Source: Isoetes taiwanensis (taxonomy: Eukaryota > Streptophyta > Lycopodiopsida > Isoetales > Isoetaceae). Taken from it: a stretch of 64,000 bases of DNA. The stretch is from positions 2,904,829 to 2,968,828 of the forward strand of contig JAJEKV010000041.1 of the NCBI GenBank assembly GCA_021234155.1, in the 5' to 3' direction. A program made the position numbers and the translations under genes. The notes under the pieces were generated by a model that saw nothing but the letters and a program-made list of their open reading frames with translations, had not been told where the DNA came from and did no database searches. Position 1 is the stretch's first letter. Each line of letters begins with the position of its first letter. Below are positions 36,524-64,000 of this stretch, one piece after another.

Positions 36524-36566
36524 TTTTGGAGGTTCTACCGAGATCATCTTCCTGGAATCTGGACTC

Positions 36567-38539: not shown

Positions 38540-38940
38540 CAGGTTGAGCAATTTTGCTTATTTATGGTTTGATGGTGGTGTTTCCAAAAGGCTTAATGTG
38601 GCATCTTCTGCTGCTATTCTCAAGGATGCTTCCAACAAAGTTCTTTCAAGCAAGTAGAAGAATTTATCCTAATGTCACTTCTAATATGGCGTAATATAAG
38701 GCATTGATTGCGTGTCTTCAAGAGGCAAAAATCTAAACATCGTGAATGTAATCATCTTTGGAGACTCTCACTTGTCTCCAGCAAATATCGAGAATATCGT
38801 GCCAAGAATGAAGACATGTTGCAGCTCAAAAATCAAGCCATGCCGAACCAAGAATTTTGATACCTGGGAACTCTGCCATGTTCCAAGGGAGCAAAATGGT
38901 GAAGCAGACTCGTTGTGCAGAAGTGTGCTACTTGAACATT
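38540..38940 (+). pseudogene. archaeal-type RNase H-like domain, placed before RT
   Basis: YLWFDGGVSKRLNVASSAAI (~38556-38615) matches the opening D-G-G strand. VIIFGDSHL (~38750-38776) fits the GDS(Q/E)L block, and LCHVPREQNGEADSLCR (~38872-38922) fits the closing HVPREQNxxAD motif. These three motifs together are typical of archaeal-type RNase H (aRH). In the Tat elements I know, aRH follows the RT and its own RNase H; here it lies upstream of the RT. Confidence 0.65.
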
Positions 38941-39019
38941 TGGCTGAGGGAGCAATTCAAGAGGAGGAACTTGAGAGGAGAGATCTGCAACAGCTATACC
39001 CCATCCTGGTAATCAATGC

Positions 39020-40030: not shown

Positions 40031-40059
40031 AGTGAAAGCAAACACATCCTAGTAGATTG

Positions 40060-40420
40060 GGATGAGCAATGCCAAAATTCTTTTGACAAAATCATTGATG
40101 CCATTTGCAAATCTATCCTGCTAAAACCTCCTGATCTAGAGAAGCCCTTCAAAGCTTACATCAAGCAGACAAAAAGCAATTGGTTTGGCACTGCTACAAG
40201 GGGATCATGTAATTACTTTTGCAAGCAAGATGTGGTCTGATACTGAAATTAGATATCCCAGGTTGGAGAAAAGTGCAGCAGCCCTGATGTTTTTAATAGA
40301 GAGACAAGGACATCTTCTGCAAAACAATCAGGTGCAAGTGTTCATGAGGCAAAATCCTTTTTCACTCCTATTTGCAAAAAAGCAGCCAAAGGCCAAATCA
40401 GGCAGTGGGGCTTGTAAGAT
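40060..40420 (+). pseudogene. gypsy RNase H region
   Basis: Directly after the RT, LLKPPDLEKPFKAYIKQT fits the usual start of a gypsy RNase H. HVITFASKMWSDTEIRYPRL (~40207-40266) fits its SRKLxxxExxYxxxEKE middle. It is poorly conserved compared with the RT. Confidence 0.6.
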
Positions 40421-40749
40421 CCAAGCTTATGATATTACCGTAAAAGGTGGTAAAGTTGATCGAGAATCCCAGCTCCTATCTTCCACTTGTGTTGTTTGAG
40501 CATGAAGATCAAGATGGTTTATGTGTTGATGACAATCTAACAAACTTGATCTCTGTTGATGCAGAAAACATTGATTGGCAATTTGACATCAGAAACTATT
40601 TGGAAAGCAATGAGTTACCTAAGAACTTGAGTAGCAAATCAAGAAAGAAGATTTAGGGACAAGTGCAAGAAGTTCAAAGCTAATTGAAGGGATCCTATGC
40701 AAAGTTGACAAGGAGGGAGTCTTGCTGAGATGTGTGGATAAAGAAGAGG

Positions 40750-41854
40750 CTAGAATGATAATTGAGGCGTGTCATGAGGGAGTTTGTGGAGGACACTTTG
40801 CAAAGTATACAAACCGCAAAAAGATTTTAAGGTCGGATACTTTTGGCCTACTCTCTTTAAGGATTGTTATGAAACTATAAAATGCTGCCATAAATGTCAG
40901 ATTTTTGGCAAAAGAACCTTACAACCAGCTGCCCTGACTGCCATAATTTCCCCTGGACCTTTCCAAATGTGGGGGCTGGATTTTATAGGCCCCATAGACC
41001 CACCTTCCTCAGCTCAACACCAGTTTATATTAGTTGCCACTGATTACTTTACCAAATGGGCAGAGGCAATTCCTTTGAGAGAAGCCAATGCCCAAGCCAC
41101 TGCAAGGTTTCTACATGAAAATATCTGTGCCAGATTTGGTATCCCTTTCAAAATTGTTTCTGATAGAGGCAGCCAATTCATCAACCATGCAATTGCATTA
41201 CTTCTAGCCACCTTGAAAGTCAAACACACCAAGAGTTCATCCTATTACCCTCAGGGAAATGGCCAGGCAGAGTCAACCAATAAGACTCTCAAATCAATCC
41301 TGAAGAAGACCATCAGTGTTTCAAAAAAGGATTGGCATTTAAAACTCCATGATGCACTTTGGGCATACAGAACTACCATCAAAGTGGCTACAAAGCACAC
41401 CCCTTTCAGTTTGGTGTATGGGATAGAATCAGTATTGCCTATAGAATTAGAGCTTCCATCACTCAGACTGGCCTATCAGATAAATTTGGAAATGGATAAT
41501 GCTCTAAAAGACAGATTTGTGAGATTGATGCAGCTTGAGGAGCATAGATATGAGGCTGAGAATGCAATAATGAGGAAAAAGGCCAAGGATATTGCAGCCT
41601 TCAAAGCAGCACATAAGTTACAGGGAGTCTTGAAAGAAGGAGAGTTAGTGTTAAAGTGGAACAAAGCAAGGGAAGATATGGCAACAAAGTTCGAAAATCT
41701 TTGGGAAGGACCATTTGAAGTAATAGGGACAGCTGGCAAAGATTCATATTGGCTGAAGGATATTGCTGATGGCAGAGAATTGATGAACCCTATCAACATT
41801 GTGCACCTAAAAAGGTATTGGCAACAACATGTTGCCCTTGCTCTGTTCAACTGA
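40750..41854 (+). pseudogene. integrase of the Tat-like element
   Basis: A zinc-binding start (HEGVCGGHF at 40772, CHKCQIFGK at 40892) leads into the core. The DDE motifs are MWGLDFIGPI (40970), KIVSDRGSQFI (41150) and YYPQGNGQAESTNKTL (41243). WAYRTTIKVATKHTPFSLVY and a C-terminal LKWNKAREDMATKFENLWEG follow. No chromodomain is seen after it. Confidence 0.9.
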
Positions 41855-42516
41855 AATCTCTGTTGTAAGATGTAGCTAGGTTTAGTTAGTACATAGGGTC
41901 AAAGCTAGATCAGTTAGGCCTATCTTAGTAAGGGTAGTTCTGCTTTAGAGTTGTTATTTGTGTATTAATGAGTCTATAAGTGTTGCTATGCAGATTGTGA
42001 TCAACTGAGGGAGTGAATTGATACTAATGATCATAGTTCCATGCAGGTGCATCTGAGCATGTCTTTTACACATCTCTTCCATTGCACCACATTGATCTTC
42101 ATCATCTGGAGTTGCTGACATTGCCTCCACACCAGCAACTCACTCATACTAACAAGTTTTATCTTCACATGCAGGTGCATTCCTATGTTTATCTCCATCT
42201 GTCATCTGATCAAGAGTTGACCTCATTGCATCAGAAAACCCTCCTATATTGCCAATAAATTTCCCAAGCTGCTGTCATACCACCATCCTGCAGCTTCTCA
42301 TAACTAAAGAGATTTACTTTCCATGCAGGTTCATCTGAAAGTAACATCATATGCACGTTCATAATATCAAATCTATCACCTTCCAATCCATATGCAGGTC
42401 ATTGAGTTGCCAACCATATTCTCATATTGGCAACTGGCTGGAGAACATGTCAAGAGTTATCAAGCAGCTAGTCAAAAGGGGCTGGAAGACCAGCCTTCTC
42501 TTTTTGTTTGGCATAA
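41855..42516 (+). repeat. 3' internal region with CATGCAGGT repeats
   Basis: ATGCAGGT(G/T)CAT-like words recur at about 42043, 42171, 42325 and 42391. This is a loose repeat in the element's 3' untranslated part. A clear polypurine tract is not seen directly before the LTR; AAAAGGGGCTGGAAG at 42474-42488 is the nearest candidate. Confidence 0.45.
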
Positions 42517-44964
42517 TACTGCCATGCTATGGCAGCATGTAAGAGCCAAGCATATATTAGCACTAATCCTATCAGTTTGGTTCAATTTGCAAGATATTAG
42601 GAGAATGCTTCACTAGCATATATTCAAGTTTGAAGAGCAAAGGAAGGACAATTGACTCAAGTCACTCAAGAGATACAAAAGGTCAAACAAGCAAAGGAAG
42701 TGTAGAGAAGAAGAGAAAGAAGACCCCTTGAAGAGCATTCCATGGTATGTGATCATTTATAAGCTTGGCATCTTTGGCATTTTTTTTATTTCCATCCTCA
42801 TACACCTCCCAAAGTCAAACTTGACCTTGAAAGTTCTTTCTAGTCAAAATACACCTTCATAAGACACCCACTTGCTTCATCATCCACTAGTTCAGGAAAG
42901 ACTTGACTTAGTCATAACTTTGCTTATGAAATCAACATTACATGCAACTTGAGCAAAATGTAGAGAGGCTTGCAAAATCCCTAAGGGAAATGCTCAAAAT
43001 TCAAATATGCCTCAAAGATGCCTCAAAGATGCTACACAAAATTTTTGGCTTCCTAATGAGCACTAGATGTGCCAAGTCCCTCTACACCTTACTTCACACA
43101 TCACACCCATCACCATTTTATCCTTTTCATCTCAAACTCTCATTCAAATCAAAATTCATTTCAAAATATCATTGTTGCCACATCACCTTTGACACCTCAT
43201 CATTCACACACATCATCTCCACATCATTCTAAAAATTTTGACTAGAGAGAATTTTCAAATTCAAGTGGGCTGACACGTCATCACTCCCATTGGCCATGTC
43301 ATACCACTTAGCCATGTCATCTCTTTCAAATGCCACTTCATCCACTCCCCAAACTTTTCTCCAAATTCCAAAGATCTCTATGGTGAAAAAAGATCCCAGA
43401 ATATTATGGGGCACAGAAAAAGATTCCCCTAAAAAAAAGAATTTTGAAGAAAGGCCTTATTTTAGGCATGGTATATGTTTTCTAGGGAATCGTGCCATGG
43501 GGTTTTAGGGGTGCAAAAAATTTTCCTATCTACCCCCCCCAAGCCTAATTTCTCTTCCAAGCCAATTCCCCCCTGCCGCGTGGAGCATCCGGGCGTGTGG
43601 GGCGGTGGAGGTACCGAATCCCACGGGACACCGCACACAATAATCAAGAAATCGATTTTTTAAGCCTTATATACTTTGTCTCCGCTAAATTGAATTAGGC
43701 CTGTGGGATATTTCTCTTCGAACTGCCAAAAACCTAAACCTGGAAAATGCCAAGATCCGTTCAAGTCGACCTAACAAACCATTAATTCATCACCTAAACT
43801 GGCCGAATCATCATGTTTAATGCCATGAATGCTTAGTGCGGGCTAAAAGACAGAAGATTTGAAGGAAATGATGAAGATTTCAACGGAACAGTACATTCTA
43901 CAAAAGGGGATTTTTCGCACAGAAGAGTTTCGAGGGCTTGAAGGCAAAGAAGATTTTTTGGCTTTGAAGAAGGACCGTCTTGACAACCTTGAGCTTGATC
44001 CTGACCTCCTATGTTTACCTTTGATCCGGATTATTGACTTAATTCTCTGGATTTTTATGTGCACCTATTTGATCCTGTGCCCAAGACCCCGAGCTTGGGA
44101 TGTTATATTGTATCTTATGAGTGACTGATTTAATCGAAAATCCGACCTTTGCATCAATTTGTTTGAGTTGCTTTGTGATCTTTTCCAAAAAAGCAAAAAT
44201 TGTCATAGCTTTACTGTCATAGCTTGAGTATCTAGTGCCCGTGCATATTGTTAGCTGTGTGTTGTCTACCTGTGTCACAAACCCTTAGAAAGTGCAAAAG
44301 CCAAATCCCTGCATTGCAATGGAAAGTTGGCATTGTTAGAACATGAGGTATTGCACAACAGGTGTGGTGCATGGGAGAGCCACTGTTTGAACTTCAATCC
44401 TGTCAAACAAAGTATGTGGAAGTAGACAGCATTGGATACACGTACAGTTGACCCTTACAAAACATTATCTTTCAAGAACATTTTCTTCTTACAGTCTTAG
44501 GCTAAGAATTATCAAAAGAAAAAATTGGATCCCTTCTGGTCAAAAAGAATAGTTGGCCCCTGGTGTGCAGACAAATCTGAGAGAGATAGAGTTGATAGTT
44601 CCAAAAAATTCATCACCAATATCGAGTTCCAAATATCAGCTCTCTGTCAGGGATATTGACCAAAAATTGACTGGGTCAGTGATTTGAATCTCGCCCATCT
44701 AGCCTACTCTGACCTTGCTGAGCTTTTGCAGTCTGTTAGTGTCAAGTGTTGAGCACATCAAGGAGTGATATCCACACCCATAGCTTCATAAATCACATTC
44801 TGCAAGAGATTTTGTGAAGCAGACTTTTTTCTCTTCAGGGAAACACACTCCTAGTGATCTTTTGTGATTCTTTCTGGAATCTTTGCACTCAGAGTGGTTG
44901 CCTTAAGCAACCTGGAGGTTCTAAACCACTGAGGTTGAAGGTTTTGCCAGGAACACCTTCAACA
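42517..44964 (+). repeat. 3' LTR of the Tat-like element
   Basis: Matches the 5' LTR over its whole length. Differences concentrate in the G/C-rich patch near 43525-43640, plus one short extra segment near 43183. Followed at once by the target duplication GAACT. Confidence 0.92.
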
Positions 44965-45236
44965 GAACTTGGAGGAAGATTTCAACAGGTAAATATATAT
45001 CCACTACGTACCAAACATTTCTTTGGTTGCAGCATGTTAAAGATGCTCATTCTCTCATTACTTCCCAGGTCAAGAAGTAGTGGAGCAACAGACTCACAAC
45101 GTTCAAGATTGCGACGATCATCACAGGGTTCGGGATCCGAAGAACATGGTCGCTCGCCTGACTTGGAGAGGGAAGGATCCCGACGACGTCAACGTGTCAC
45201 TGAAGAAGAGCGTCCATTTCGCTTTGTTTTAGACAC
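44965..45236 (+). CDS. Arg/Ser-rich exons, right part (TNPA-like by position)
   Basis: After the LTR element the exon resumes and ends CAACAG|GTAAAT at 44988. The next exon (45069-45236) follows ACTTCCCAG and reads SGATDSQRSRLRRSSQGSGS, EEHGRSPDLEREGSRRRQRV and TEEERPFRFVLD, ending GACAC|GTAAGT. The phase is kept through the junction. Strongly basic with Ser and Glu, so probably disordered and possibly DNA-binding. Same style as 25898-26311, which suggests one gene. Confidence 0.55.
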
Positions 45237-48403: not shown

Positions 48404-50411
48404 CATAGTTACCGAAAACGGCCGTTTTCGCCGTTTTTTTGCCGTTTTTTTAATTTTCCCCTAAGGCCGTTTTCAAAGGTGAAAACGTGCATTTAAAAAA
48501 CGCCATGTTGAAAACGCCTACGTGGCGTTTTTTTGCGCCGTTTTTTAGAAAAAAACGGCCGTTTTTGGTAAGAGAAATTTTTTGGGGAAAATTTCGTTCG
48601 TGCCCTGTTATGCTTTGGAGGTAAAAAATTGAGGCAAAGAACTGCGCCCCTGTTTCCAATCGATTCAAGGTAGCTCCAGCCCATCCGGCAACTCCTCAAC
48701 AAGCTCGATTTACCATTCCACAGGTCGATTCAAGAAGAAGAAGAAGGCAGGTATTTTGCATTTCGATTTCTATTTTCATTATGCATATGAATCTGTCAGT
48801 TCAGTCTTCAAGCAAAGCAAGCGCCCATTGCCTTATAGTCCGGATTTCGTGGCCTTGAATCGACCTGCCATAGCCATTGCTTATTTCGACCTGCTGCTCA
48901 AACATAGAATAACATTTCGACCTGCCATAGCCATCAAACATTCGACCTGATTCAAATATGCATAGGTTTCTTATGCAATGCAAGGTAAGAATTTTTACAG
49001 TCCTTGTAATCTCTGCCCAGACCATAGTTCGACCACTACTTATTAAATAAGCACTATCAGGTTGCTGTAAGTTTCGATTCAAGCAGCATATATTCAGGTT
49101 TTGATTCATGCATTCTGAAAGCAAAGGGCGACCAGGTTTTTTTGTTTTTCCATTTTCTATCAGTCTATTCATTGTCTATCAGTCAATACATTTCGTTTTT
49201 TGCTCTGCCTATGTATTTCCACTATCTGGAAATTTCTTTTCTCCATATTTCGATTTCTGAAGCATTACAAACAGCAGCACTTGGTCTCCATATTTGCAAT
49301 GTTTTTTTATCATTTTGAATTATGATTTCAGTTGTTGTAGCATCAAATTCATCATGTCTGTAAATGTTTGCAGCAAGGATAAGCATGTTACATATATTGC
49401 TTGCATTTTGCAGCAAGTATAAGCCAGCAAGTCTTTTATTAGTTACAGCATGATACACTTCATACTAGGTAGCAAGCTCATTTTGTTATTATTGATATTT
49501 TTTCCCATTCTTTCAGTTCTTTGTTGAGTCATGAGCGGCAACAGGAAAAGGAAGCACAAATAGACAGTGCCAGATCCAAGTGATTGATGGAAGGATAACC
49601 TATGAATTTACATCCATTGAATGGAAGATGGTTTTTGTCGTGTGATTGAGGATATCATGATATTGCTCTGCCAATCATTATTATGCTTTAGATGGAATAT
49701 CTTTCTTTATATATTTCTCATAGCGTCAATCCTCTGGTGACCACTTTAACTGATATATTTTAATTGATATAGTTATTGAACAATGTAGAAATTGTACAAG
49801 CAAATGGTTGAATTTGAAGGCTGGATTACAAATGCGATTCTTTGTGCGTAAATTGTATACTTCACAAATTAGAGGGATTTGTCTCATAAACAAAATTTTC
49901 GGATCTGAGAAATGCGAATATACTTTGCTGAGGTTGGCTGGAAGACTCCAAAAGAGGCCTATCAAAGTCTGATAGCAATGTCAGAAGCTTTCACCATAGA
50001 TGGCCTTTAAAATGGTAGGGAAACTCTATTTCGAAACTTGTTGGGTTATCATACTGCATAAGCTGATGGGCTATCAAACATAAATTTTAGAAAGCCACAA
50101 ATGCACCTAAAGGTGAACATGTATCTTCTCCTTGTTAGTTCCACAACTAAGCCCCTTTCTTTGGCAGTGTAAAAGGATATCAGTAGGTTCTGCTAATGCT
50201 CTGATCAATATATCTCCCAACAGATATGCATTTGCCAAATTCCTATATATATGATACATAAGGAATAAAAAGGAGTTTTCCTGAGAACTTGCCTTTTTTT
50301 TGGATTTTTTCAAGACCTTGCCGTTTTTTTTGCCGTTTTCGTTCCCGTTTTCGTTTTCGTTTTCAATTCTAACTTGCCGTTTTCATTTCGTTTTCGTTTT
50401 CGGTAACTATG
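48404..50411. mobile_element. non-autonomous hAT-type DNA transposon, 2.0 kb
   Basis: Perfect 17-bp terminal inverted repeats, CATAGTTACCGAAAACG (48404-48420) and its complement (50395-50411), are flanked by the exact 8-bp direct repeat CCTAAAAT (48396-48403 and 50412-50419). Eight-base duplications and short CA...TG ends are typical of hAT. Both subterminal zones are packed with GAAAACGG/CCGTTTTC words (48415-48570 and 50320-50400), likely transposase binding sites. No transposase is present: only the short MSGNRKRKHK at about 49532 hints at a lost N-terminus. The perfect ends suggest a fairly recent insertion. Confidence 0.9.
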
Positions 50412-50739
50412 CCTAAAATTCCCTTAAAAAAGTCCATTTTTAAGATTTTTTTGTGACAGGTGTGACAATTTAAGTAATTTAGGTACCATTTTTGAGGGGT
50501 TGATTGAACATAACTTTCATGCAAAAATTTTAAATAGCAATTTTTATCCTCTTAAACTAGAACAAAAAATAATTACTTTTATAAAGTGTAGCAAAAAGGG
50601 GCAATAAAAAAAATAGCAAGGGTAGTAGAGTGACAAAGAAGTGATATATTCATGGTTGTGAAAATTGTACAAAATTATGAACAAAATTGTCAAAAATATA
50701 GGACATTTTGACGCACAATCATCACCGCACTTTCTTTCT

Positions 50740-51541
50740 TTTACATGTTCGAGTCATCGGACAAACTTACATTTTGCAGCAAGATCAGGATGCATCTCAT
50801 CCTCTGACTCATTTATTCCCTGACCACTTGAGCCTTCATCCTCAACTTCACTCTCAAAACTGGATGTACTCGAACGATTCTTCCTCACTGTCTACAAGTG
50901 AGTCTTCATCATCATCTTTTTTGGCCACCTTTTTGACTTGTTTGTCTAATCCACATGCCGGCCTTATTAAAGTTTGAGTGACCATACGTAACTTATTAGC
51001 AAAGCAATCGTAACAAAGTCATATGCAAGAACCTTTACTTCAGCTTAGATCTATGACATGCCAGTGCTTGCTTTGGACTTAGCTCTCTTTCCCACTCTGT
51101 TTTACCATCTCCAAAGTATAACTCCCAATCAAAGCATTGGCGATTCGTTCTCATCCAAAGCACTTTTAATTGAGTGGGAATTCCATCCTCTTTGTTACCT
51201 CCAAGTACTTTAGCTAGCCGAATGGCCTCCCAGATTCATCATTATCACCGGGACAGCTACGAGCATTCCTTTTGAATCTCGAGACCCAACCAGATACTGA
51301 AAAACAACTTGTTGTGCTGTCGCCTAGGGCGGTGTACATGACTCGCTATCTTCATCCGAGCTAGCCAATATCTCTACATGTTCCTCTTGATTCTCAACTT
51401 GCACGAGGGAGAGTTTGCCTAGATGGCCGATTAATGTAACCGGTCTTCGACCTTGTAATGAAGCTTGCAACATGTCACGTTGCCGAGAAAAAAATTGAGG
51501 CCACCATAAAGCATCTGCCTCCCCAAAATGGTTAGAGCATG
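50740..51541 (-). pseudogene. unrecognised minus-strand gene, cut by the chromovirus
   Basis: Minus-strand coding sense: ALWWPQFFSRQRDMLQASLQ (~51460-51520), VENQEEHVEILASSDEDSES, then RFKRNARSCPGDNDE (~51230-51275). IWEAIRLAKVLGGNKEDGIP, LKVLWMRTNRQCFDWELYFG and DGKTEWERELSPKQALACH follow (~51055-51230), then an acidic end LDKQVKKVAKKDDDEDSLVD (~50890-50950). Two or three frame changes and a stop interrupt it. No family recognised. Its upstream part ends exactly at the chromovirus LTR (51542), so the insertion may have split it. Confidence 0.5.
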
Positions 51542-53185
51542 TGACGCCCTCGCTAAACGTGACGGGCGCCGTCCGCACACTTTCAAAGAAAATCCCCATC
51601 CGCTCAACAACCGCATGGGCCCTTCGTCTACCCCGCACTCTGAGGTGACTCCTAGTGCGGGAAGGGAACACGAAGGTGTCTTGTGCGCCCTTCCCCTATG
51701 GGCTCCTATAATAGCGAAGGCGATAACACGCCGTAATCCAGCATCAACATATACAAATACTACCTCGGGGTAGTGCATCACTCATAATCCAAGGCAAAGA
51801 TGATAATCACGAACCATAAAACATGAGAGCTCCTACCCCGCTCGGACTGTAAGGAGGATGACCGACCGGGCTAGGCCTCAAGATAGAGCGTAACCGAGTC
51901 ATGGCAATGGCGAAGGGCTGGCATAGAACAATGGTTAGGGTTGACCACTCCATCCGCCCTCCCCATGCATACTTTGCGGATGGGCTAGATCAGGCTCGAT
52001 AGGACTCTAGCCTTCCTGATACGCAACCCCATGGCATCACCCATCGGGACTACTCCAGGTTGCATCTCCCTCGGTCCGGATGAGGCAGAAGGGTTGCATC
52101 TCCCCTTCCCAGGATCTAGAGGTGCCGTGGGCGCTAGAGAATCGTGGCGACACACCCATTCTTCACTGACCGTGAACCCCCCAAAACGAGAGCCAAGCCA
52201 ACACTTGCAGCTCTCGAGAGGCAGGGCAACACCATTGCCCCAGAGGTGTCGGACCCATGCTCGGCCCACACGAAGTGACCGACCATAAGCCTAGCCCACT
52301 ATGGGATCCCCCGGCTCCCCCACTCGGCAGGGATCCTCCTCCACTTTCCCTCTAGCCCCCGTTATATGGTGCTGAGTCATATCATAGCCTCAATAGCCCT
52401 GTGGGCTCCTATGCACAAAGTGCAACTAATAGGAACTAAGGGTCTACTCTAGGAGCATACTACATATGGCTCTAGGTCTCTACCCCTTCCCCATACAAGA
52501 GGAGCAAACATGATCAACCATCATCACATAATCATCACATCATGAGAATAATCATAAGAATAACATCTTAACCTAATCATACAAATCTAACTAATAGTTA
52601 GGGTTCCTTGATTAGGGTTCAAGATGTTGAATATGGGTTCTAGGATGGCTCTACTCTAGATACAAAATACTAGCATATCCGGAATGCTAATTTCCAGATG
52701 AGCTATCACAACCACTATCCTACATACCTGCCCCTCGGCTCTCCCTCCATCCGCGTGTGCCTCCATGGTCTCCTGACTCACGAGATGCCTCCCTACTCCA
52801 AGAACGAAGTCTACCCTGGCTGGGGCACGGGCCGCACCGCCTATGCCACAAGAAAGCCATGTTCAAAACGGGTTTCGAACGAGTAGGTGAGTCTCCTGGG
52901 TGCTAGGGCCGAAAGAGGTCTAGGTTAGGGTTCATGCCTATATGAGTTAGGGTCCACCTAGGATGCCACGTGGCACCAATCGGGTGAGTCCCGTGGTGGC
53001 GAAAGCCCCAATAGGTTAAGGCCACGCGGATAATGGCTTAACCTTTGGTTGGCTAAGTTATGAGAATAACTTAGCCATGCCCCCTAGTGCCACAATCTAT
53101 GGTATACAAGGCTATGAAGATAGACTTGTATGGTGACGATCCAGAATATAATGATTTATGGCGTATGTTCCCCCTGACCGCCACA
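51542..53185 (-). repeat. 3' LTR of the chromovirus
   Basis: 1644 bp, TG...CA. The outer edge TGACGCC at 51542 matches TGACGCC at 63059. The inner edge CCACA at 53185 meets the polypurine tract. The 5 bp outside are GCATG; the other target copy lies beyond the window. Confidence 0.88.
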
Positions 53186-53196
53186 TTCTCCCCTTA
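53186..53196 (-). promoter_or_regulatory. polypurine tract of the chromovirus
   Basis: On the minus strand AAGGGGAGAA abuts the LTR start TGTGGCGG. This is the expected primer for plus-strand synthesis. Confidence 0.75.
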
Positions 53197-53629
53197 GGAC
53201 AATGTTTGTCCTCAAGATTGCGCTTAAGGTGACGAACCTACCTTATGCCCGCACAAGCAACAACATGTCATAACCTTTAGTTTAGTTTAGCAATCAAGTT
53301 TTATTAGTTCAAGTCAAAATTTAGGCTATATTTGTACTTATACAAAATTATATAGCCTTAACACTTTATTTCTTACGATAATTCAAAACATTATGGTAAG
53401 AGTTATTAGGGTTCATAATCTAAATTATGGCTCTCCCTATCTTCTCGTAATGCGCCTCCTGAGGTCCACCTTCTACTTGCCCGCAAAAAGGAGCACATTA
53501 CGCTAGTTTAGTTAATAATTTGTGGTTTTAGGGGACCACCCCTTTTACCTCCTTGAGTCGAACTCCACCGACTCAAGGTTGTCCTACTACCTTGCCCAAG
53601 ATCATGGCCCTTTCGGATTTGAGCTTAAG

Positions 53630-53990
53630 GATCATTTAAGATGCTCCCATCATCGCCCATGATCGAGTGCTACCTTGTACTCGGTTACCCAGTGCCGAGT
53701 ACCCCTAGTGCATCATGCCCCCCGGGTTTGAAGCTAGGGAACGTCTCACGATCCCATCATCGCACATGATCACTTTAACCTTCACCATGACCCTCCTACG
53801 GCCGTGTGTGCGCATTCCCGCATCGTGGCATAGAGATCATCCGATCGATGTCCCATCATCGCCCACTATGCCTTATTCCTCACTCACATGACCCTAATGG
53901 TCATGCGCACCTCTTGGTGCGTGTGGCCTAGAGAATGCCCTAAAGGTGTATCCCATCATCGCCCACACGATCCAAGGTTCTGGCACATGC
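53630..53990. repeat. CCCATCATCGCCCA repeats in the element's 3' region
   Basis: Four copies (about 53645, 53753, 53848 and 53948) at ~100-bp spacing lie downstream of the element's coding part. They form a small tandem array in untranslated sequence. Confidence 0.6.
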
Positions 53991-54089
53991 ACCCTAGTAA
54001 CTAGAATGCATGCCGGGCTTAAGGCTAACTAACAACATACTAGCTAACCACCGGCAAGTCGGGTCGCACCAAGCCTGAGACGACATCGC

Positions 54090-54240
54090 CCATCAAACTC
54101 CTTCATAAACTCGGGTATTGCTTCTCCAAGTCTTGCTTCAATACCCATGTCGCATCTTCCACTGCAAGTGCTTCCACTTAACCAAATACCGGAGGAACCG
54201 AGACCTCCTAGTCTTCTTGAATGACTTATCAAGAAGCAAT
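54090..54240 (-). pseudogene. chromodomain of the integrase
   Basis: Minus-strand peptides RYLVKWKHLQWK and EDATWVLKQDLEKQYP match the two core blocks of a chromodomain (YLVKWKxL and ATWE). In chromoviruses this domain, at the integrase C-terminus, is thought to steer insertion by reading modified histones. Confidence 0.75.
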
Positions 54241-54379
54241 TCGTGCACTATTTCTACTTGCTCCCTCCGGCATTTCCAACAAGGTTGGAGTATCTAAAAC
54301 CTCCTCGTGGTTAGGATTGTGCCTTTTAATAAACTTACGTGGAAGACCTTGTGCACCTTGAGATGGGCCGGAAGATCCA

Positions 54380-55430
54380 ACTTGTAGGCTTGAGAGCCCA
54401 CTCTCCAAAATCTTGAACGGACCAGCCCACCTAGGGGCAAGCTTCTTGCAGCCCCAATCCGCAGCCTTTGGCTTGCTTCACCTTTATCTTCAACCGACGC
54501 TTATCGCCGCCTTTGAATTCTCTTACGGTCCTCAGGTTTGTCGGCTACACTCTTCTCACACTTCTTGCCGCCAATAAATAACCCCTTTACTTCTTCCACT
54601 AGCTGCCGATATCCCCTAACATCTGGCTGATACTTCTACCTTGGACACAGATTGTGCCGTGTATCCGGGGTTAAGCACCGGTACCCGTAATTTACCATGA
54701 AAGGAGACATCCGAGATGACTCCGCTTGGCAATCGCTTGTAGGCGAATTCCACCAAGTGGATGTACTCATCCCACTTGGACCGCTTGTTCCACACATAGC
54801 TTCAAGCATGTCTTCAATGATCCGATTCGGCCCTCTCCGCCCGCCATCCGTTTGGGGATGATATGCCGTGCTCATGGAGAGCTTCGCCCAATGGTGCTGA
54901 AGAGGTCCCCGCCAAGGCACTCATAAACTTGGAATCCCTATCGATATTATCTCCCGAGGCATGCCATGGAGTCCGAAAATCTCCCTTACAAATAACTTGG
55001 CAAGATCTAATGCGGTGTCAAGAGTCTTGCAAGGCACAAAATGTGCCATCTTAGATAACTTATCTACGACAACCATCAATGCATCCTTGCCTCAAGAGTT
55101 CTAGGGAGACCCGATGAAATCCATGCTTATGACCTCCCACTTTGCATTTGGCACCCCAATGGCTCAAGAGCACTGAACTGGTTGTTCCGCTTTGGTCTCA
55201 CCGACATAACCGGCAATCCCGAATATATGCAGCTATCCGCCTCTTCATTCCCGCCGGCCGTAGCTACTTCGAATCTTGAAATAGGTCTTCATGAAGCCAA
55301 AGATGCCCCGCTATTGGGCTGTTATGTGTGTCATGAAGAATTAGCTTCCTTTACCCCCGATGATTCGGCACACACAACTTATGCTTGTGGTACAACATGT
55401 TGCCTTCCTTCTTATAATGCTTGAAGACTT
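54380..55430 (-). pseudogene. integrase of the chromovirus
   Basis: Zinc-finger side: GNMLYHKHKLCVPNHRG (~55355-55405). Core side: LSMSTAYHPQTDG (~54840-54880) with the usual run into the third catalytic residue, and SPFMVNYGYRCLTP (~54660-54705). Order and strand fit the element. Confidence 0.75.
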
Positions 55431-55599
55431 CCCCGCCTCCTTATCCGCTTCGCTTCCTTTGGAAAGGCTTTCCCATACCTCCTTGAAGTCCACATCCGCT
55501 GGCAAGGACTCCTCAATCTTCTTGCCAAACTCACTCGAAAAGAGTGGAAATCGCATTACAATGCGCCCTTGTCTCAAATGGTCTCCCGAGAGGGCATCT

Positions 55600-57086
55600 C
55601 TACAACATTAAGCTTACCAGCTTATATATAATATCAAAATCATACTCCTCAAGGAATTCCATCCACCTCCTTTGCCTTAAGTTGAGGAGTGGTCGGGTGA
55701 AAAGATACTTGAAGGCTCGTGATCGCATCCAACTGAAACTTCCTTCCCGGCAGATAATGCCTCCATATCCTCAATGCCCCGACAATGGCTAGCAGCTCCC
55801 GATCATGGGTTGGGTAGCGCTGTTCGGCGCCGCTCATCTTCTTCGAAGTCGTAGGCTTACTACCCTTCCTTCTTGCATCAAGACTGCCCCTTGCTATCTT
55901 GCTTGCATCCGCTGCTACCAACTTATCTTTTACTGATCCGGAGAACAAGCATTGGTGCTGTCGTTAGGGCCTCTTTAAGCTTCTCAAAAGAAGCTTGACT
56001 TTCTAACCAATGGCTAGTCCAATCCTTAATCTTCTTGGCCTTAGTGAGGTCCCACAAGGGGACGCCCACTTCAAGAAAGTCCTTGACGAAACTTTCTCGT
56101 AATATCCCGCCAACCCGAAAAGCTTTTACTTCGCCACATTCCTTGAGCTGGCCAATCAACTATTGCCTCAATCTTAGATGGATCTGTGGAGATTCCCTGA
56201 TGTTACTACATGCCCCAAGTACTCCACTCGGCCAAGGTAAAGTGGCACTTAGAGAGCTTCCCATACAACCGATGACGCCTCAACTTCTCCAACACTTTCC
56301 CCGAGATGCCGATAATGCTCCTCAAGGGACTTGTCAGATTAGGATGTCGCCGAAGAAGACAATAACAAACTCATCCAAGAAGTCTCAAGATGTCGCTCAT
56401 GAGGCGATAAACGTTCTGCTGGAGCATTCGATAGTCCAAAGGGCATTATCAGAACTCAAAGTGACCATACCGCTCGAAAGCGGTCTTATGGATATCCTCT
56501 TCTTTTTATTCTTATCCGATGGTATCCTGACCTCAAATCAATTTTAGAGAATACCTTTGCTCCTTGTAATCGGGTCCATTAGATCATCTCGCCTTTGGCA
56601 ATGCATACTTGTTCTTTATCGCCCCGCTTATTAAGCCGGGCGATAGTCTATGCACATTCTTAAGCTCCCATCCTTCTTCTTCACAAAGAGTATAGGTGTT
56701 CAAAGGAGACACACTTGCTCTTATAAATCCAAGCTCGAGCAATTCCTCAAGCCGCTTTGAGCTCAATCAATTTCGGGTGCTCATTCTATATGGCGCCTTC
56801 TTGGTAGGCTTCGTGATCCGAGCCAATGTGATCTCACATTCCACACCCCTATAAGGTGGTAAATCCGCCGGATTTCATCCGGAAATATATCCTTGAACTC
56901 TGAAATAAGCCTTGCTATCTGCCTGGGCAACTGATTTCCCTTTGGTTCACTTCCATCCTGCTTGCCTGGCTCAACTGATTCCATCCTCAAGATGTAATCC
57001 ACCTTATTCCTTTCTATACTCCTCCTTAGCTGCTTCAAAGAAATACACTGCATAGGAGAATCTAGCTTCTTACCTTTCACTATCAA
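55600..57086 (-). pseudogene. reverse transcriptase and RNase H of the chromovirus
   Basis: LISEFKDIFPDE (~56890-56925) is the usual start of gypsy RT. RLEELLELGFIRASVSPLNT fits the L...G.I..S.SP block and KNKYALPKAR fits DYRxLN...YPLP. SFEKLKEALTTAPMLVL (~55930-55990) leads into RNase H, with AEQRYPTHDRELLAIVGALR and WRHYLPGRKF (~55740-55830). Confidence 0.8.
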
Positions 57087-57781
57087 CTTGTCGCCGCCCG
57101 TGCCGCCATGGTGACTTCATTCCTGCCGCAATCAATCATGGCTTTGGCTGGCTTCAAAAAATCCATCCCCACTATCAGATCATATCTTCCGATATCCATG
57201 ACTTCTGCTCCCATCGGCCACTTAGCCCCACTAAGGTCTATGTCAAAGGTGATCCTCCTCCCCTTAGTGTGCCGAATGGCGCCGTTTGCCATAGCTACTG
57301 GCCTTGGCTTAGACTTCAATACCTTGTTCTTCATTAGAGCAGCCAATCTAGGAGATGCAAAATTATGAGAGCTACCTGTATCTATGAGGACTACATAAGA
57401 ATTACTATCTATGATCCCGTCCGCAGCGATGACAGTTGACTGATTCTCTATATCACCTGTCTCAATGTTTGCACATATGTGGCACTCACCATCTATGAAG
57501 TCCTGGCCCTCCTGCTGGTCGTCGTCCTCGTCCGCTTCTGTTGGGGAGTCCCAATCCAAGAGTTCTGCCAAGGCTGACTGCATGACGAATGGACAATCAT
57601 GTGTTCGGTGCCCTGGCTGGAAGCACCTGAAACATAGCTTTTTCTCAATGCATTCCTGTCTCTTTTCCTTCGGCAGACTGTCTAGGAGACGCTTAAGAGC
57701 GCTGCCCCCTGATGCATTCTGTGGCTTACGGTCCCCAAAAGCTTTGCTCTGACCCTTACCTTTGCCGGGCCGACTCCCCAT
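57083..57781 (-). pseudogene. gag C-terminus with CCHC knuckle, and protease
   Basis: A 232-codon open block. Zinc knuckle CFRCFQPGHRTHDCP (residues ~49-63) is followed by an acidic linker and the protease active site VVLIDTGSSHNFASPRLA (residues ~130-147). DLIVGMDFLKPAKAMIDC (residues ~203-220) is the second conserved protease strand. Confidence 0.85.
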
Positions 57782-57799
57782 GGTGTAGCCGCTGATTGC

Positions 57800-58700
57800 T
57801 TACTCGATATTGTCCCCGAGCACGCCCCAACTCTTACCCCCGGGTTGATCGCTTCTCTTGGAGTTGCTGGTGCCTCCTCCAAACTTATAGCTTTATCTTC
57901 GGCCTGCGCAACTGACCTTGGGTTGATTGCTCTAACAAGCCTCTTGATATTGCTGTTCAACCCCTCAATGTAAGTATCCACGGCTTGCCTCTCTGAGACT
58001 CCAGGAACATGCAGCCTGAGCCTCATAAATTCTTCTGTATACTTAGCCACTGATAAGCTACCCCGATTCAACCTCAGAAATCTGCCGGAATCTGTCTACT
58101 AGTATGAGACCTTGGCACGTAGTGCTTGCGGAAAGCCTTGCTGAAGGTCTTAAACCTGCAATTGTTCCTCTTCAGCTTGTTGGATTTAGCATATCCCTTC
58201 CACCAGATCCTTGCCGGTCCAATAAGGTTAGCTGTAGCAACTTTCCCTATGTCCTTGTCTTTCATACCGTATGAGTTGCCAAATTCTTCCATTTCATCAA
58301 GCCATGCTTCAGCCTCCATGCCTCGATCTGTTTTTCCCCGAAACCGGCCGAAGCTTCCTTGTCTTCCATACATTGCTCATAGCACTATCCACCTTTTTCT
58401 CGATAGTCACCGCCTTTCTTGCTCTTTTCCTTGCTTTTAGGTGTGCCCGACCGACCGCTTGAAAGCTAGAGCCGTCCTCACCGGAAGAGCTATCTCGATG
58501 AGCTGGAGCTAGATGATGATGGACTCCTGGTTCTCCTCTTCCTTCTCCTATCTCTCGACGCTCCCCCCGTTGCCCTCCCCCTTCCTCGCCGAGGGACTTC
58601 GCCACCACCCTAAAACAAGGTGGAGGTGGAGGACCATCTTCCCATTCATTCATGAGTTGATGAGGTGTTGCATCCGGTTCCTCATCTCGCACCAACCTTG
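57800..58700 (-). pseudogene. gag capsid region of the chromovirus
   Basis: AEAWLDEMEEFGNSYGMKDK and LIGPARIWWKGYAKSNK (58140-58310) match the retrotransposon gag core (W..xE..F......D..K...A...L.G.A..WW). SVAKYTEEFMRLRLHVPGVS (~58000-58060) is the next gag block. The N-terminal part is rich in Arg, Lys and Pro. Confidence 0.8.
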
Positions 58701-58829
58701 CGCTGATCGGCCTCCTCGTGACATATCCTGCTCAACGCCTTCATGTTCTCTCGCCAAACAAGTTCCTTGGTACCCAATTATGTGGTCGGTGGCCGATCTT
58801 GAGATCCTCGTGACTTGAGTTCCTTGCTG

Positions 58830-61388
58830 CCGCAAGGATTGATCATCAATACATTTTATTTGGGTTAGATGTTGATCAATTTTACTTGCAATTGAATTAT
58901 CTTTAGTTATAAGAAATCATACAAAGCCTTACATTGACAAAACAGTTAATAGTCATTAATACATAAGGATTACATGATAAGGTAGATATATCTTAGCACA
59001 ATGGGTACAAGAAATACTTAGCACAAAACTTAAGAAAATTTTACAACTATTCAATGGCCTCCCGAAAGCCTGAAGAAGTTCTTGACATCCCTGAATCGGA
59101 GGCCTTTGCCGAGGTTGCGCAAGATGTTCCTCGCCGATCTTCCTTCAAGTGCTTTCGGGCCATCTCCTGTTCCGGAGTTCTGATGTCGCTGTCGCTACCA
59201 CTGAAAGTGTTGCATCCCTAAGGTGCCCTCTCGCAAAATCGAGGCAATGGAGCGCGACTGCCCTGTTGAAAAGAATGATGTGATCGGCATGGGCGTATAT
59301 CTTCGAGTGCTGCCCGAAGCCCGAAAGTGCTATGAGAAGTGCCACGGATTCTTCCCCCCTTGGGCTGAACTCCTTGTGGAAGACTATCATTTGCCCTTGG
59401 TCGAGGGTCGAAGATAGTAGCGGCGTCGCGGCCCTTCCCTACGCCATGATCCAAAGGCCCTTCCTCGAAGCCGCTTTCACCGTAGGCATCAACCGCCATC
59501 GTCTTCATGATCCCTCCACATGCCGGGTTGCATTGTCCAAGTTGATGCCGCTGACCCTTCCCTCATGCTCCTGCTCGAACTGGCTCGGCTTTGAGCTTGG
59601 GCCCTTCCCCGTTTGTAGAGTGTGCTCAGATCTGAACTCCTCCTCCGAGATGATAGGTTCCTCGCTGCCGATAGATCTCCCTTTATTCGGCCGATAGGGT
59701 CGCTATGTCCCACATTGTCTCCCCAAAGATAAGAGTGTCTCTCCGCCAGCCCCTTTGGGATCTCCCCGGTATGAGTAGTCGATGAGGTCTCAAGCTTCTT
59801 CCCCGCGGTGCTATCATGCCCAAGAGCTCATCGATTCAAGACCCCTGCTCCCGACAAGGGACAAGTTGAGGATGTCATTTGCAAAATGTACTCCTCCCCG
59901 CCGATGACTATCGGCGACGACAGAGCCGTGATGCCGACCGGGTGGGTCGGTAGTCGCTTCTCACGCCGTCGCCATGCCTCGACGCGATACCTCCGCATTC
60001 TTGTTGCCTCCCCGCTCTCCCATTCGGGTTCGCCCTCCCTAGCCGCCAGAGTCTTCATGGATCTATAGAGATGGTGCCCCCGACGCCGCGCCATAGTATT
60101 CGTAGGGCGGAGGACTCTATATTCGTGGATTTGATCCCGGGCTCTCTACGGGTATCAAGTGGCGCTAAGTCTAAGGGGCTGAACAGAGGGTTCCCCTACT
60201 TTGTTGATTGACTTATAGTGCATGAAGAGGGCAAGGGTCGCCTGAAATGAAAGGTACCTATGCCTATTATGTCCGGTCATGTAATCGGGCATGGTCCTAG
60301 TCCTATCCCATAGTCAAGCTTGCCTTTGGATCCCCGCCAACTCTCGACCTAAGGCTTGGGTAAGTGTCTCAAGGGAAACCCACCCTCCCCCTAGGAGGCG
60401 CCTAACTTCCCAAGGCAGGACCGCTGGTCATATTGGCACATAATGTCCGTGTAGTAGGGTGTTCTAGTCAAAGTTGCATGAAGATCAAACAAGTGATCAA
60501 ACACGTAGAAGGCTTGATCTACTCGGAAGCTGATGGATATGGTGGCAAAAGATTGTACCATCTCTCAAAGTTGCTTTGGGCCATTGAGCGTGAAAGGGTG
60601 TAGAAAATGGCTTGCAAAGATCGCTGAGGATCGTAAAATCGCCTAAGGGGCGGGAGCAGCTTTCAGAGGGAAGAAAAATGGCAAATGGGGCCTATTTTTA
60701 TAGACTATGGGTGACCCTGGTTCGTGCAAAAAGGTACCTACCTAAGACGACCTTGGTTCTATGGCTCTGGGTGTCCAAATGAACTACCATGAAGTGCAAA
60801 CTTAAGCAAAACAAAGCAAGAAACACTACATGGCAATTTGTTGGATCAAATTTGGCTAATTTGGCTCAAAGATGGGCTGACCCGGTGAATCACATGATGG
60901 CCTCAGCGTCATGACGCAGACGCGCTTTGGCGCCATGCCTCACCCCGGCTTGGCCTGTTTTGGGCCAATTTTTGGTCATTTTTGGGAATTTAAAGATGCT
61001 AATATGGCTAATTGGGCCAATTCTAACCTAACTAGCAACTTATTTTGAGCAAAACTGACATCTAAAAGCAAGATTTTGGGGGTAGGCGGGTGAATCCGCG
61101 CGAAACGCGCCCGCGTCGCGGACGCAGAGGCCATTGGCGCGGTCTCACCCGACTGGCCCAATTTTTAGCATTTTAGATGATTTTTTTGCCAAAATTTTGT
61201 TGTAGTCATGATTTCTAGGGTGTTTCTAGGCATGCTATGAAGAATTCTACTACAATTGGGTTCTATTTCCTACATTTCAAGCATACAACATTTTTTTCTA
61301 ATTATAGAGGAAAATAACTTTTATATTAATAAGAAACATAGTTACATGAAAATTTTAATTCTTCTACAAAATTTACAAAATTTGAGGC
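58830..61388 (-). other. unassigned zone between the H3-like frame and gag
   Basis: Two coding-like patches on the element strand do not match gag or pol: SALSGFGQHSKIYAHADH-type sequence (~59300-59390, LIALSGFGQHSKIYAHADHI) and RYRVEAWRRREKRLPTHPVG (~59930-60000) with ITALSSPIVIGGEEYILQM next to it. The rest (60100-61380) is non-coding, with AT-rich parts. Such extra length before gag is unusual for a chromovirus. Confidence 0.4.
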
Positions 61389-62228
61389 CTAGGGCCTCTC
61401 CCTGCGGATCCTCCGTGCTAAGTGAATATCCTTAGGCATAAGGGTAACTCTCTTAGCATGGATAGCGCAGAGGTTCCCTTCCTCGAAGAGCTGGACCAGC
61501 TCTGCTTCGGAAGCCTCTTGCAGGGCCCGGGTCATTAGAGGGGTAACCCTATAATCGGTCCGGAACTGCTGCAAGACCTCTCTAAGGAGACGCTCGAAGG
61601 GCGCCTTCCTTATCAGGAGATTCGTGCACATCTGGAAGTGCCGAATCTCCCTAAACACCCGGGCATATGTGCTGTTCGGCCCGTGGTGAACCCTCTTGGG
61701 TTTTTCCGGTCTCGGTGGGGGTGGCTTGGGCTGGTTCTTCTTCGGCCTGCCGCCCACCACGACGCGCTGCACCTCCTGCTGGCAATACCACTCATTGTAC
61801 CTCGTCCAACGACGAAGGTACTCCTTGTATGCCACCATCTTCCGTTTGAACTCCCGGTCCTGCTGGAGCGCGAATGCCCGCTCCCCTACCTTTTGTTTCT
61901 TCACCACCTTAGGTGGTTCCGGCCACTTAGGGTAGGGTGGCCTAGCGTCGGGGTCCTGCTGCCCCTCCTCCTCCTCTTCTTCATCCCCGCCCTCCTGCTC
62001 CTCTTCCTCCCGCTGAGGCTCATCAATAACGATGGTCCGGCGAGGGCCATCGTTCCTCTTCTTCGTCCGTCGCTCTTGCTCCCTCAGCTCCCTCTCTCTC
62101 TCCCTTTTCTTCCTAGCGGCCCTCTCCTCCGGCCACTCTGCTACTTTTTCCTTTCCCTTCTTTTTGGGCACTGAAGGGCCCGCTTCTTCTACCTGTTGTT
62201 GTGCCTGTTCTTCCACCTCTTCTTCCAC
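61389..62228 (-). CDS. histone H3-fold protein inside a chromovirus
   Basis: A 279-codon unbroken frame on the element's coding strand, between 5' LTR and gag. Residues 1-185 are highly charged ([36 protein letters not shown], then [13 protein letters not shown]). Residues ~188-279 are a histone H3 fold: FREIRHFQ (alpha-N), [15 protein letters not shown] (alpha-1), [15 protein letters not shown] (alpha-2), [20 protein letters not shown] (loop 2, alpha-3) and a terminal RRIRRERP. By eye 32 of the last 40 residues equal canonical H3. C, H, R and D of the H3-H3' contact (CAIHAKR...KD) are kept. Loop 1 has the canonical length, without the extra residues typical of CENH3. The true start is uncertain: no ATG precedes residue 131 in this frame. 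Role unknown; a nucleosome-entering or chromatin-mimic protein is inference. Confidence 0.85.
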
Positions 62229-62318
62229 CTCGGTGTCTGTGGCCCCGAAATGGCGAGACTCGCCGGTCCTCTGGGTACCTGCCGACGGAGAACTGCTGCT
62301 GGGACTCTCCTCGGCGTC

Positions 62319-62484
62319 ATGGAAGGAGGCTTCGCTGCTGCTGCTGGCTGGGGGGAAGCTCCTCTTCCCCTTTCTTGGGTCGGAGGTGCTCCGGGATCTT
62401 CTTCACATGCCGCCCTGCTGCCTGCGCCATGGAGAGGGTAGGTCTTGTTCCAGGCTTCCTGTAGGTTTGCTTGGTGCGTGCCAT
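62319..62484 (-). CDS. short frame starting with the histone H3 tail (MARTKQT)
   Basis: From an ATG in good context (GATATGG) at 62484 the minus strand reads [20 protein letters not shown], then [20 protein letters not shown], 55 codons in all. ARTKQT is the exact start of histone H3 (Arg2, Thr3, Lys4), and RK at residues 9-10 parallels Arg8-Lys9. The next residue is Pro, not Ser. It lies 0.57 kb inside the 5' LTR and just upstream of the H3-fold frame on the same strand. Together they suggest the source was an H3 gene; I treat them as two separate parts. Confidence 0.7.
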
Positions 62485-63043
62485 ATCTTATGGTTCAGAA
62501 AATGGGTGACGAAGGGCTGAGCAAGAGAGAGTTGGAGGTGAAGGGTTGGAGAGAGAAAATGAGGTGTCAGATATTTAAAAAGGAGGGTCCCTGGGAATAT
62601 TCTCCTACCATAATTACCCCTATTTATTAGCCCCCCTTATTAATTACAAGATATTTAATAATTATTTAACTATTAATGTATATATTAACCTATATTAATT
62701 GATATTATCTTTAAATTTTCGAATTTTCCTAATGGTTCGAAGTGCAATTTATGAATTTGCGCCATTTTTCACCTGGGTCTCCGATTGGCATGATTCTTCG
62801 ACCCATTTTAGGTGAAATTTGATGCAGATGCATAATTTTCACTCCAAATTTACTAGAAGGTTCGTTTGACTCACTCAAATCTTCGTCTAACACTTAGCCT
62901 AATTCCTGACCCACTACCTAGGAGAAAATTTTTTCCCCCATTTTCGCGGTTCAATGGTGGAAATGTTTATTTCACACCCCTATAGGCCTGTTAGACTACT
63001 TCATGGTTATGGTCAGTGCTAGTTCTTGGTCAACCAAGAACAT
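62485..63043 (-). other. leader of the chromovirus, no gene seen
   Basis: AT-rich from 62620 to 63040; the only frame is the H3-tail start described separately. Expected leader or packaging region. Confidence 0.5.
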
Positions 63044-63055
63044 CGCTCGATACCA
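63044..63055 (-). other. primer binding site, initiator-Met type
   Basis: On the minus strand, two to three bases after the LTR end, TGGTATCGAGC resembles TGGTATCAGAGC, the complement of the plant initiator-Met tRNA 3' end. A near match, as usual for gypsy elements. Confidence 0.65.
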
Positions 63056-63058
63056 TTG

Positions 63059-64000
63059 TGACGCCCACGCTAAACGTGACGGCCACCCGTACCGCACACT
63101 CGGCAGAAATCCCCCATCCGGCTCAACAACCGCGATGGGCCCTTCGCCTCCCCCCGACTCTGAGGTGACTCCTAGTGCGGAAGGGAACACGAAGGTGTCT
63201 TGTCGCCCTTCCCCTATGGGCTCCTATAACAATTTGAGCGATAACACGCCGTAACTAGCATCAACATATACAAATACTACCTCGAAGGGTAGTGCATCAC
63301 TCATAATCCAAGGCAAAGATGATAATCACGAACCATAAAACATGAGAGCTCCTACCCGGCTCGGACTGTATGGAGGGATGACCGACCGCTAGGGCCTCAA
63401 GATAGAGCAGATCGAGTCATGGCAATGGCGAGGGCTGGCATAGAACAATGGTTAGGGTTGACCACTCCATCCGCCCCTCCCGCATACTTTGCGGATGGGC
63501 TAGATCAGGCTCGATAGGACTCTAGCCTTCCTGACACACGCAACCCCATGGCATAACCCATCGGGACTACTCCGTGTTGCATCTCCCTCGTCCGATGAGG
63601 CGAAGGGTTGCATCTCCCTTCCCGTGATCTAGAGGTGTGCCGTGGGCTAGAGAATCGTGGCGACACACGATTCGCACTGACCGAACCCCCAAAACGAGAG
63701 CCAAGCCAACACTTGCAGCCTCTCGAGAGGCGTGGCAACACCATTGCCCCAGAGGTGTCGGACCCATGCTCGCCCACACCGCAGTGACCACCATAAGCCT
63801 AGCCCACTATGGGATCCCCCGGCCCCCACTCGGGGATCCTCCCTCCACTTTCCCTCTAGCCCTGTTATATGGTGCTGAGTCATATCATAGCCTCAATAGC
63901 CCGGTGGGCTCCTATGCACATGTGCCGCAACTAATAGGAACTAAGGGGTCTACTCTAGGAGCATACTACATATGGCTCTAGGTCTCTACCCCCTTCCCCA
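63059..64000 (-). repeat. 5' LTR of the chromovirus, cut by the window edge
   Basis: 942 bp matching the first part of 51542-53185 (in plus coordinates), including TGACGCC, GAGGTGACTCCTAGTGCGG and GGCTCTAGGTCTCTACCCC. The remaining ~0.7 kb and the target duplication lie outside. Confidence 0.88.

Follow-up and report, generated by a model that had tools for sequence, protein, structure and literature searches.

A histone H3-variant gene in a chromovirus family of Isoetes taiwanensis

A Ty3/gypsy chromovirus family in the Isoetes taiwanensis genome carries, between its primer-binding site and gag, a gene for a long variant of histone H3. We hold it to be next to certain that this is a selected, element-encoded H3 protein. 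The whole statement, that is to say, an accessory H3-variant gene of a chromovirus whose protein enters host nucleosomes with altered rules, seems to us evenly poised between right and wrong.

The element and the position of its H3 gene

The window, which is the whole stretch of DNA analyzed here (64,000 nucleotides; bases 2904829–2968828 of contig C1047), contains one copy of the element (Table 1). The minus strand is the coding strand of the H3 frame (61389–62228) and of the element, and the plus-strand translation at the frame has stops. Gag, protease, reverse transcriptase (RT), RNase H, integrase, and chromodomain follow one another in order on one strand; thus, judged from its sequence, the element is a Ty3/gypsy chromovirus with two LTRs, a primer site, the gag-PR-RT-RH-IN order, and a chromodomain. 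The placement proposed in the earlier note (on the element strand, inside both LTRs, between the 5′ LTR and gag) is borne out by the LTR match and the typed domains, and its chromodomain was recovered as PF00385 at 2.2e-11 in L032:5-472, the piece that matches window positions 54353–53897. The match to the gag CCHC zinc knuckle is weak taken alone. The two LTRs of the window are ~90% alike; both LTRs were seen in three copies, in two of which the 5′ LTR is cut by the window or fetch edge. The primer-site sequence TGGTATCAGAGC, which we take to be the plant initiator-Met tRNA primer site, is present in most copies, and a pattern search found the LTR end followed by TGGTAT in 26 of 30 loci picked by their leader DNA (described below).

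Table 1. Features of the H3-carrying element, in window coordinates.
Feature	Position	Strand	Evidence or remark
5′ LTR	63057..64000	-	LTR-LTR match; truncated at the window edge; copy L033/L034 has ~1.27 kb
Primer-binding site TGGTATC..	63044..63055	-	Sequence; directly behind the LTR end GTCACAA
AT-rich leader with 8 upstream ATGs opening short frames	62485..63043	-	Sequence
H3 gene start and H3-like N-terminal tail, out of frame with the rest in the window copy	62317..62484	-	
Ser/acid-rich, basic, probably helical insert of the H3 protein	61656..62402	-	Stop-free frame 62402-61389
Histone H3 fold, 88 residues	61392..61655	-	PF00125 2.4e-28; PDB H3 5e-32
Stop codon of the H3 gene	61389-61391	-	
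Gag (capsid-like, CCHC knuckle) and aspartic protease, broken frames	56958..58464	-	
Reverse transcriptase and RNase H, broken frames	55254..56745	-	Match to Pfam-typed frames of other copies
Integrase, broken frames	54338..55244	-	
Integrase C-terminal part with chromodomain, broken frames	53897..54353	-	Match to homologous piece L032:5-472
3′ LTR	51540..52815	-	LTR-LTR match

A Pfam profile search matched PF00125 to the frame 61389–62228, and 176 distinct PDB sequences matched it as well, of which all 60 best listed are named H3; the histone fold that had been read from the letters is thus confirmed. The last 88 residues of the frame constitute the H3 fold, which aligned without gaps, and at the same length, with residues 48–135 of host H3. 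The earlier note had also described a charged extension of ~185 residues before the fold. The extension is present, but the stop-free frame is longer than the one described there (62402–61389, 337 codons), and the ATG at 62484, which lies in another frame in the window copy, is likely the true gene start. In intact copies this start is in frame with the fold, so the charged extension sits between an H3-like tail and the H3 fold. In the window, 571 nt separate the primer site from the ATG at 62484, whose context has a purine at −3 and G at +4. Preceded by 8 short upstream frames, the H3 gene is the first long frame of the element RNA; it has its own start and its own stop, with nothing to suggest that it is joined to gag or pol.

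Similar broken frames (..IVIDGEEYI..) were observed between H3 and gag in two copies (L031:4286-4633 and L033:4302-4760). The L031 piece had no Pfam match, and these frames are perhaps an N-terminal gag part or another gene.

Elsewhere in the window, we observed (i) a second LTR retrotransposon on the plus strand (34086–45200), with LTR-like repeats 94–99% alike and ~8.44 kb apart, long gag/pol-like frames, and matching RT and integrase regions, in which no H3 was found; (ii) a tandem array at 15790–20560 with units of ~0.9–1.1 kb that are 60–92% alike; and (iii) at 21494–22428, a pyrimidine-rich stretch of ~0.9 kb in which long open frames overlap, probably a simple repeat.

Copies across the genome and selection

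When the protein was searched against its own genome (a 1.66-Gb assembly of 1110 contigs), at least 127 matches were scored out of 22873 first-look candidates, and 98 of the 127 had no stop in the matched stretch; these are the best-scoring matches and hence biased. Against that bias, a search with the leader DNA only was made, which yielded 2077 candidates; 40 of these were scored, and 30 loci were retrieved. The H3 gene was found at the same place in 30 of the 30 leader-picked loci, beginning 74–89 nt past the leader match and with a MARTK start in 29 of them; its frame was wholly open in 5 copies and not in the other 25. The copies are spread over many contigs. The junction of LTR end and primer site, with sites counted by the junction alone and not for H3, has 471 exact copies in the genome against 0 for the reversed control. 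Conserved across the copies of the family, the extra ORF is, on this sequence pattern, a standard accessory gene of the element. The lack of further copies with the frame at the same place had been named as the observation that would speak against such a gene, and the leader-picked loci supply those copies. A one-off H3 retrocopy was rejected on account of the many genome matches and the gene in every leader-picked locus, and a host gene cluster was rejected on account of the LTR/primer-site placement of the gene.

The comparison of synonymous and non-synonymous change among copies that the earlier note had called for was made by the Nei–Gojobori method with Jukes–Cantor correction. The first set was built from 30 loci of the protein search, with L077 and L078 left out, giving 27 intact frames and, with 7 duplicates removed, 20 distinct intact copies. 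In this set, in which the choice of copies by protein match favors a low dN, dN/dS was lowest in the fold (0.041), with 0.118 for the insert and 0.139 for the tail; synonymous p-distances over the regions ranged from 0.27 (in the fold) to 0.39. Five members of the set also came out of the leader search, in which the protein plays no part; among these, dN/dS was 0.067 in the tail, 0.161 in the insert, and 0.035 in the fold, where the synonymous p-distance was 0.17. Over all 30 leader-picked copies, with errors included and indel codons skipped, the values were 0.223, 0.246, and 0.173, which are probably upper bounds for active lineages because errors and decay after insertion raise the ratio. 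By these ratios, the H3 fold is under purifying selection.

The element could instead have picked up a piece of host H3 mRNA or gene once and carried it without function. Such a passenger has a precedent in the fungal hAT transposons of Pseudocercospora fijiensis, in which, according to the portions of PMC6710886 available to us, all amplified H3 copies have been inactivated except the original, and it would fit the 25 leader-picked copies that are not wholly open. We nevertheless regard it as scarcely credible, in view of the low fold dN/dS of the intact copies (still 0.17 with broken ones counted), the presence of the gene in every leader-picked copy, and a second, differently built family (described below).

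The leaders of L047–L076 differ by 1.9% on average, as against ~26% at the synonymous sites of the adjoining H3 frame. Template switching among copies could account for this gap, as could constraint acting on the leader, and the picking of copies by leader contributes to it.

The unbroken H3 frame beside damaged gag and pol, to which the earlier note had given weight, proved to be weak evidence. The gag/pol frames of the window are broken, but few leader-picked copies have a wholly open H3 frame and the LTR–LTR differences resemble assembly error; we therefore dropped this contrast as a proof of selection. In the three copies with both LTRs (from the window and L031–L034), gaps and substitutions numbered 43/32, 41/35, and 47/28, and transitions and transversions 14/18, 11/24, and 16/12, with no excess of transitions. 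Of the gaps, 29/43, 32/41, and 36/47, and of the substitutions, 23/32, 32/35, and 24/28, lay within ~3 nt of a CG, where 43%, 36%, and 36% of the columns lie. Decay of methylated cytosines yields transitions. Clustering at CG without such an excess therefore suggests base-calling error at (methylated) CG sites of the assembly. In a second gap comparison, of L066 with the 29 other leader-picked loci, 422 of 733 gaps in the H3 region were near CG (42% of columns) and only 99 were multiples of three, and in the leader 9 of 75 gaps were near CG (17% of columns), which is no enrichment. Since the leader gaps of this mixed comparison are not enriched at CG, some frame breaks may be real decay. Whichever applies, error or decay, no reliance can be placed on the "damaged" gag-pol of the window or on an age read from the LTRs, and dating by LTR divergence was dropped because the LTR differences look like assembly error.

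The H3 protein and its proposed role

Intact copies encode ~362–372 residues that begin with MARTKQT[Y/A]RK, continue into a charged insert, and end in the H3 fold. The 369-residue protein of copy L003 comprises (i) a basic tail (residues 1–40); (ii) a Ser/acid-rich part (residues 41–118) with a net charge of −10, in which 34 of 78 residues are invariant; (iii) a basic stretch; (iv) an acidic stretch (residues 161–190), again with a net charge of −10, in which 9 of 30 residues are invariant; (v) a conserved block (residues 191–250), of which 46 of 60 residues are invariant in 20 copies; and (vi) a Pro/Lys hinge followed by the fold, in which 76 of 88 residues are invariant. The acidic stretches are thus the least conserved parts of the protein. 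The block at residues 191–250 is predicted to be helical in a low-confidence model; the AlphaFold2 models reached pLDDT values of 50 and 48.

Comparison with host H3 revealed that all 20 intact copies share most of the listed contact residues with it: (i) 10 of 11 in the H3–H3′ bundle, with D106 replaced by E; (ii) 11 of 13 at the DNA contacts, with positions 85 and 86 differing; and (iii) 10 of 11 at the ASF1 contacts, with position 125 differing, the three residue lists being those that we take to define these contacts. Of the canonical tail contexts (K4, K9, K14, K18, K23, K27, and K36), only the MARTKQT[Y/A]RK start is kept; the remainder differs and is followed by the long insert. Positions 87–90, a patch that selects chaperones in known H3s, read LMTR in most intact copies versus SAVL in host H3, and K56 is changed to M and K79 to R. 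In the three copies compared, 28–30 of the 88 fold positions differ from host H3. The kept residues would fit a protein able to pair with H4, to be taken up by ASF1-like chaperones, and to contact DNA, and the changes appear to fall where the loaders of H3.1 and H3.3 discriminate and where two marks sit.

Loop 1 is longer in CENH3 than in H3. The fold here has no loop-1 insert (88 versus 88 residues, ungapped from residue 48), and the PDB entries listed are H3, so that a CENH3 origin is unsupported. The stretches REIRHFQ..TNLLI and VTLM may nevertheless resemble plant CENH3.

We propose the following course for the element. As no long frame precedes the H3 gene in the RNA, the full-length RNA would make H3 before gag-pol, which would then need reinitiation, splicing, or a separate RNA. 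The product would be a long H3 variant with an H3-like tail that keeps the K4 and K9 start context, a charged insert of ~240 residues, and a full fold; it would pair with host H4, be handled by host H3–H4 chaperones, and be built into nucleosomes. The altered 87–90 patch, K56M, K79R, and the missing K27/K36 tail context would give chromatin with different loading and marking rules; such chromatin may let the element escape silencing or rewrite it, or may mark targets for the chromodomain integrase. Nuclear entry, nucleosome targeting, and the disturbing of silencing had already been put forward as candidate roles in the earlier note, and they remain conjectural. That the H3 of the element acts by entering host nucleosomes has, in our estimate, roughly even prospects. 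Such entry would not be assured, since the fold differs from host H3 at about a third of its positions, and with so long an insert separating tail from fold, normal packing might not be possible.

Short of lasting incorporation, the fold and tail may serve the pre-integration complex by giving it access to histone import factors and chaperones, or by docking it on chromatin under assembly. Such a targeting or nuclear-entry factor would suit a family whose integrase has a chromodomain, the mostly kept ASF1-contact and H3–H3′ residues, and the conserved block at residues 191–250, which could bind a partner. We consider it unlikely, as the protein appears not to be fused to gag or pol and the DNA contacts are kept beyond what a handle for chaperones needs. 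The acidic and Ser-rich stretches, together with a mostly kept fold interface and an altered 87–90 patch, might instead mark a decoy that binds H4 and H3–H4 chaperones and starves silencing-coupled assembly while itself not being built in. Those acidic stretches are where conservation is lowest, and the canonical K4/K9 start, which a decoy could do without, is nearly always there as MARTK; this reading is less likely still. H3 needs H4 for stable folding, which counts against a basic, histone-like protein that condenses the element RNA or cDNA inside virus-like particles. An element-encoded protein with a basic tail and a fold, read from the first long frame of the RNA, would suit this packaging role, but gag has a CCHC knuckle match of its own, itself weak, and the kept H3–H3′ bundle, ASF1 contacts, and tail start would be left unexplained; we rate packaging as very improbable. 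Incorporation into host nucleosomes is the reading that we prefer.

A second H3 family and known systems

A canonical H3 query of the same genome, with 150 of 9022 candidates scored, returned 15 host-like H3 sequences at 96–98% identity and at least 135 further ones at 71–86% identity, many of them in frames of 400–500 codons. One of the latter kind, L077 (G000:C1018:19364760-19367035, L079/L077), encodes 411 residues from the first fitting ATG: a 277-residue N-terminal part, a tail-like stretch containing ARKS, and an H3 fold that departs from host H3 by 11 changes and is more host-like than the fold of the first family. The 277-residue part had no Pfam, PDB, or protein-database relatives (2466 candidates scored), and searched alone in its own genome it gave at least 140 scored matches (3782 candidates). 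Upstream of L077 are an LTR-like end, GCGTCACAG, and, at a distance of 761 nt from the ATG, a primer site, TGGTATCAGAGCC. A DNA search with the LTR end, primer site, and leader of this family scored 40 of 2779 candidates; of these 40, 23 (the query copy among them) stand immediately 5′ of a match listed for the H3 query or for the 277-residue part, and the other 17 are absent among the matches listed for these two queries. The second family, known here from its 5′ part alone, thus appears to follow an LTR-like end and a primer site as the first does. Nine positions are changed from host H3 in both families, only two of them to the same residue (F54 and P135), so that one capture and two captures both fit. 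Among bacterial and archaeal contigs, one H3-like coding stretch matched this family, in L078 (JAIYDP010000008.1), filed as a Verrucomicrobiaceae MAG; it is probably eukaryotic contamination.

We know of no histone gene in standard chromoviruses; the element here shares their gag-protease-RT-RNase H-integrase-chromodomain order and adds a histone gene to the standard set. Viral histones exist, such as the bracovirus H4 with its extended tail. There too, a parasite encodes a core histone with a lengthened tail, and this histone could be taken into host nucleosomes. By contrast, that H4 is carried by a wasp-associated DNA virus, whereas the H3 here belongs to a retrotransposon and is known from sequence alone.

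A database search with the whole protein gave 2903 matches (7971 candidates sharing most words scored), of which the best 120 listed cover 28–62% of the query and include no transposon protein by name. The insert of the first family had no protein-database match (7979 candidates scored), and nothing of this family was found in bacterial and archaeal contigs or in viral contigs. In the literature searched, outside which lie preprints and most subscription papers, we found no description of an LTR retrotransposon family in which a core-histone gene is retained under selection as a standard part, and the available portions of PMC6710886, PMC3538342, PMC9289625, PMC7264820, and PMC12477816 report no histone gene in an LTR retrotransposon.

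As far as these portions go, what is known already is the capture of H3 by fungal hAT transposons and the extra domains of plant Gypsy elements. In fungi, among them Pseudocercospora fijiensis and its relatives, hAT DNA transposons captured and amplified H3-like genes (PMC3538342 and PMC6710886, in part), and Pyrenophora tritici-repentis has 26 H3Ls with N-terminal tail insertions that match neither H3 nor CenH3 completely (PMC3538342, in part). On the same partial accounts, the likeness to our element is twofold: an H3-like gene that a mobile element has multiplied, to copy numbers in the tens or hundreds, and tail insertions in the Pyrenophora H3Ls as in the H3 here. The differences are that (i) the fungal carriers are DNA transposons, whereas the carrier here is an LTR retrotransposon with gag-pol and a chromodomain; (ii) the Pyrenophora copies are, by the same portions, nearly identical and recent, whereas those here are diverged, under purifying selection, and of two families; and (iii) the H3 gene here, unlike the fungal one, has a fixed place behind the primer site. 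No inverted repeats of at least 40 nt were found in window positions 50000–64000, and an H3 carried by a hAT of the fungal kind does not fit an element that has LTRs and gag-pol.

Among plant Gypsy elements with extra domains, Phalaenopsis Ty3/gypsy elements carry an m6A demethylase, in a screen that covered 121 angiosperms and whose results, in the available part of PMC9289625, name no histone. Additional ORFs of plant LTR elements are reviewed in PMC7264820, where the word histone occurs 0 times in the main text as available. Such elements resemble ours in having a conserved extra ORF that may act on host control; in ours, the extra gene, placed between primer site and gag, encodes a core histone.

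That an element-encoded H3 variant sits in host nucleosomes, so that a parasite writes the chromatin that its integrase reads and with which the host silences it, we regard as possible but somewhat less probable than its opposite. Elements are known to read chromatin through chromodomains and to counter silencing; a selected core histone as a standard part would, on the literature searched, be new. The idea of parasite-written chromatin becomes directly testable, and the two sets of residues offer a natural experiment on H3, in the parts that the parasite keeps (the H3, ASF1, and DNA contacts, K4, and K9) and those that it changes (positions 87–90, K56, K79, and the remaining tail). If the proposal is true, two diverged families would show parasite-written chromatin to be a lasting strategy.
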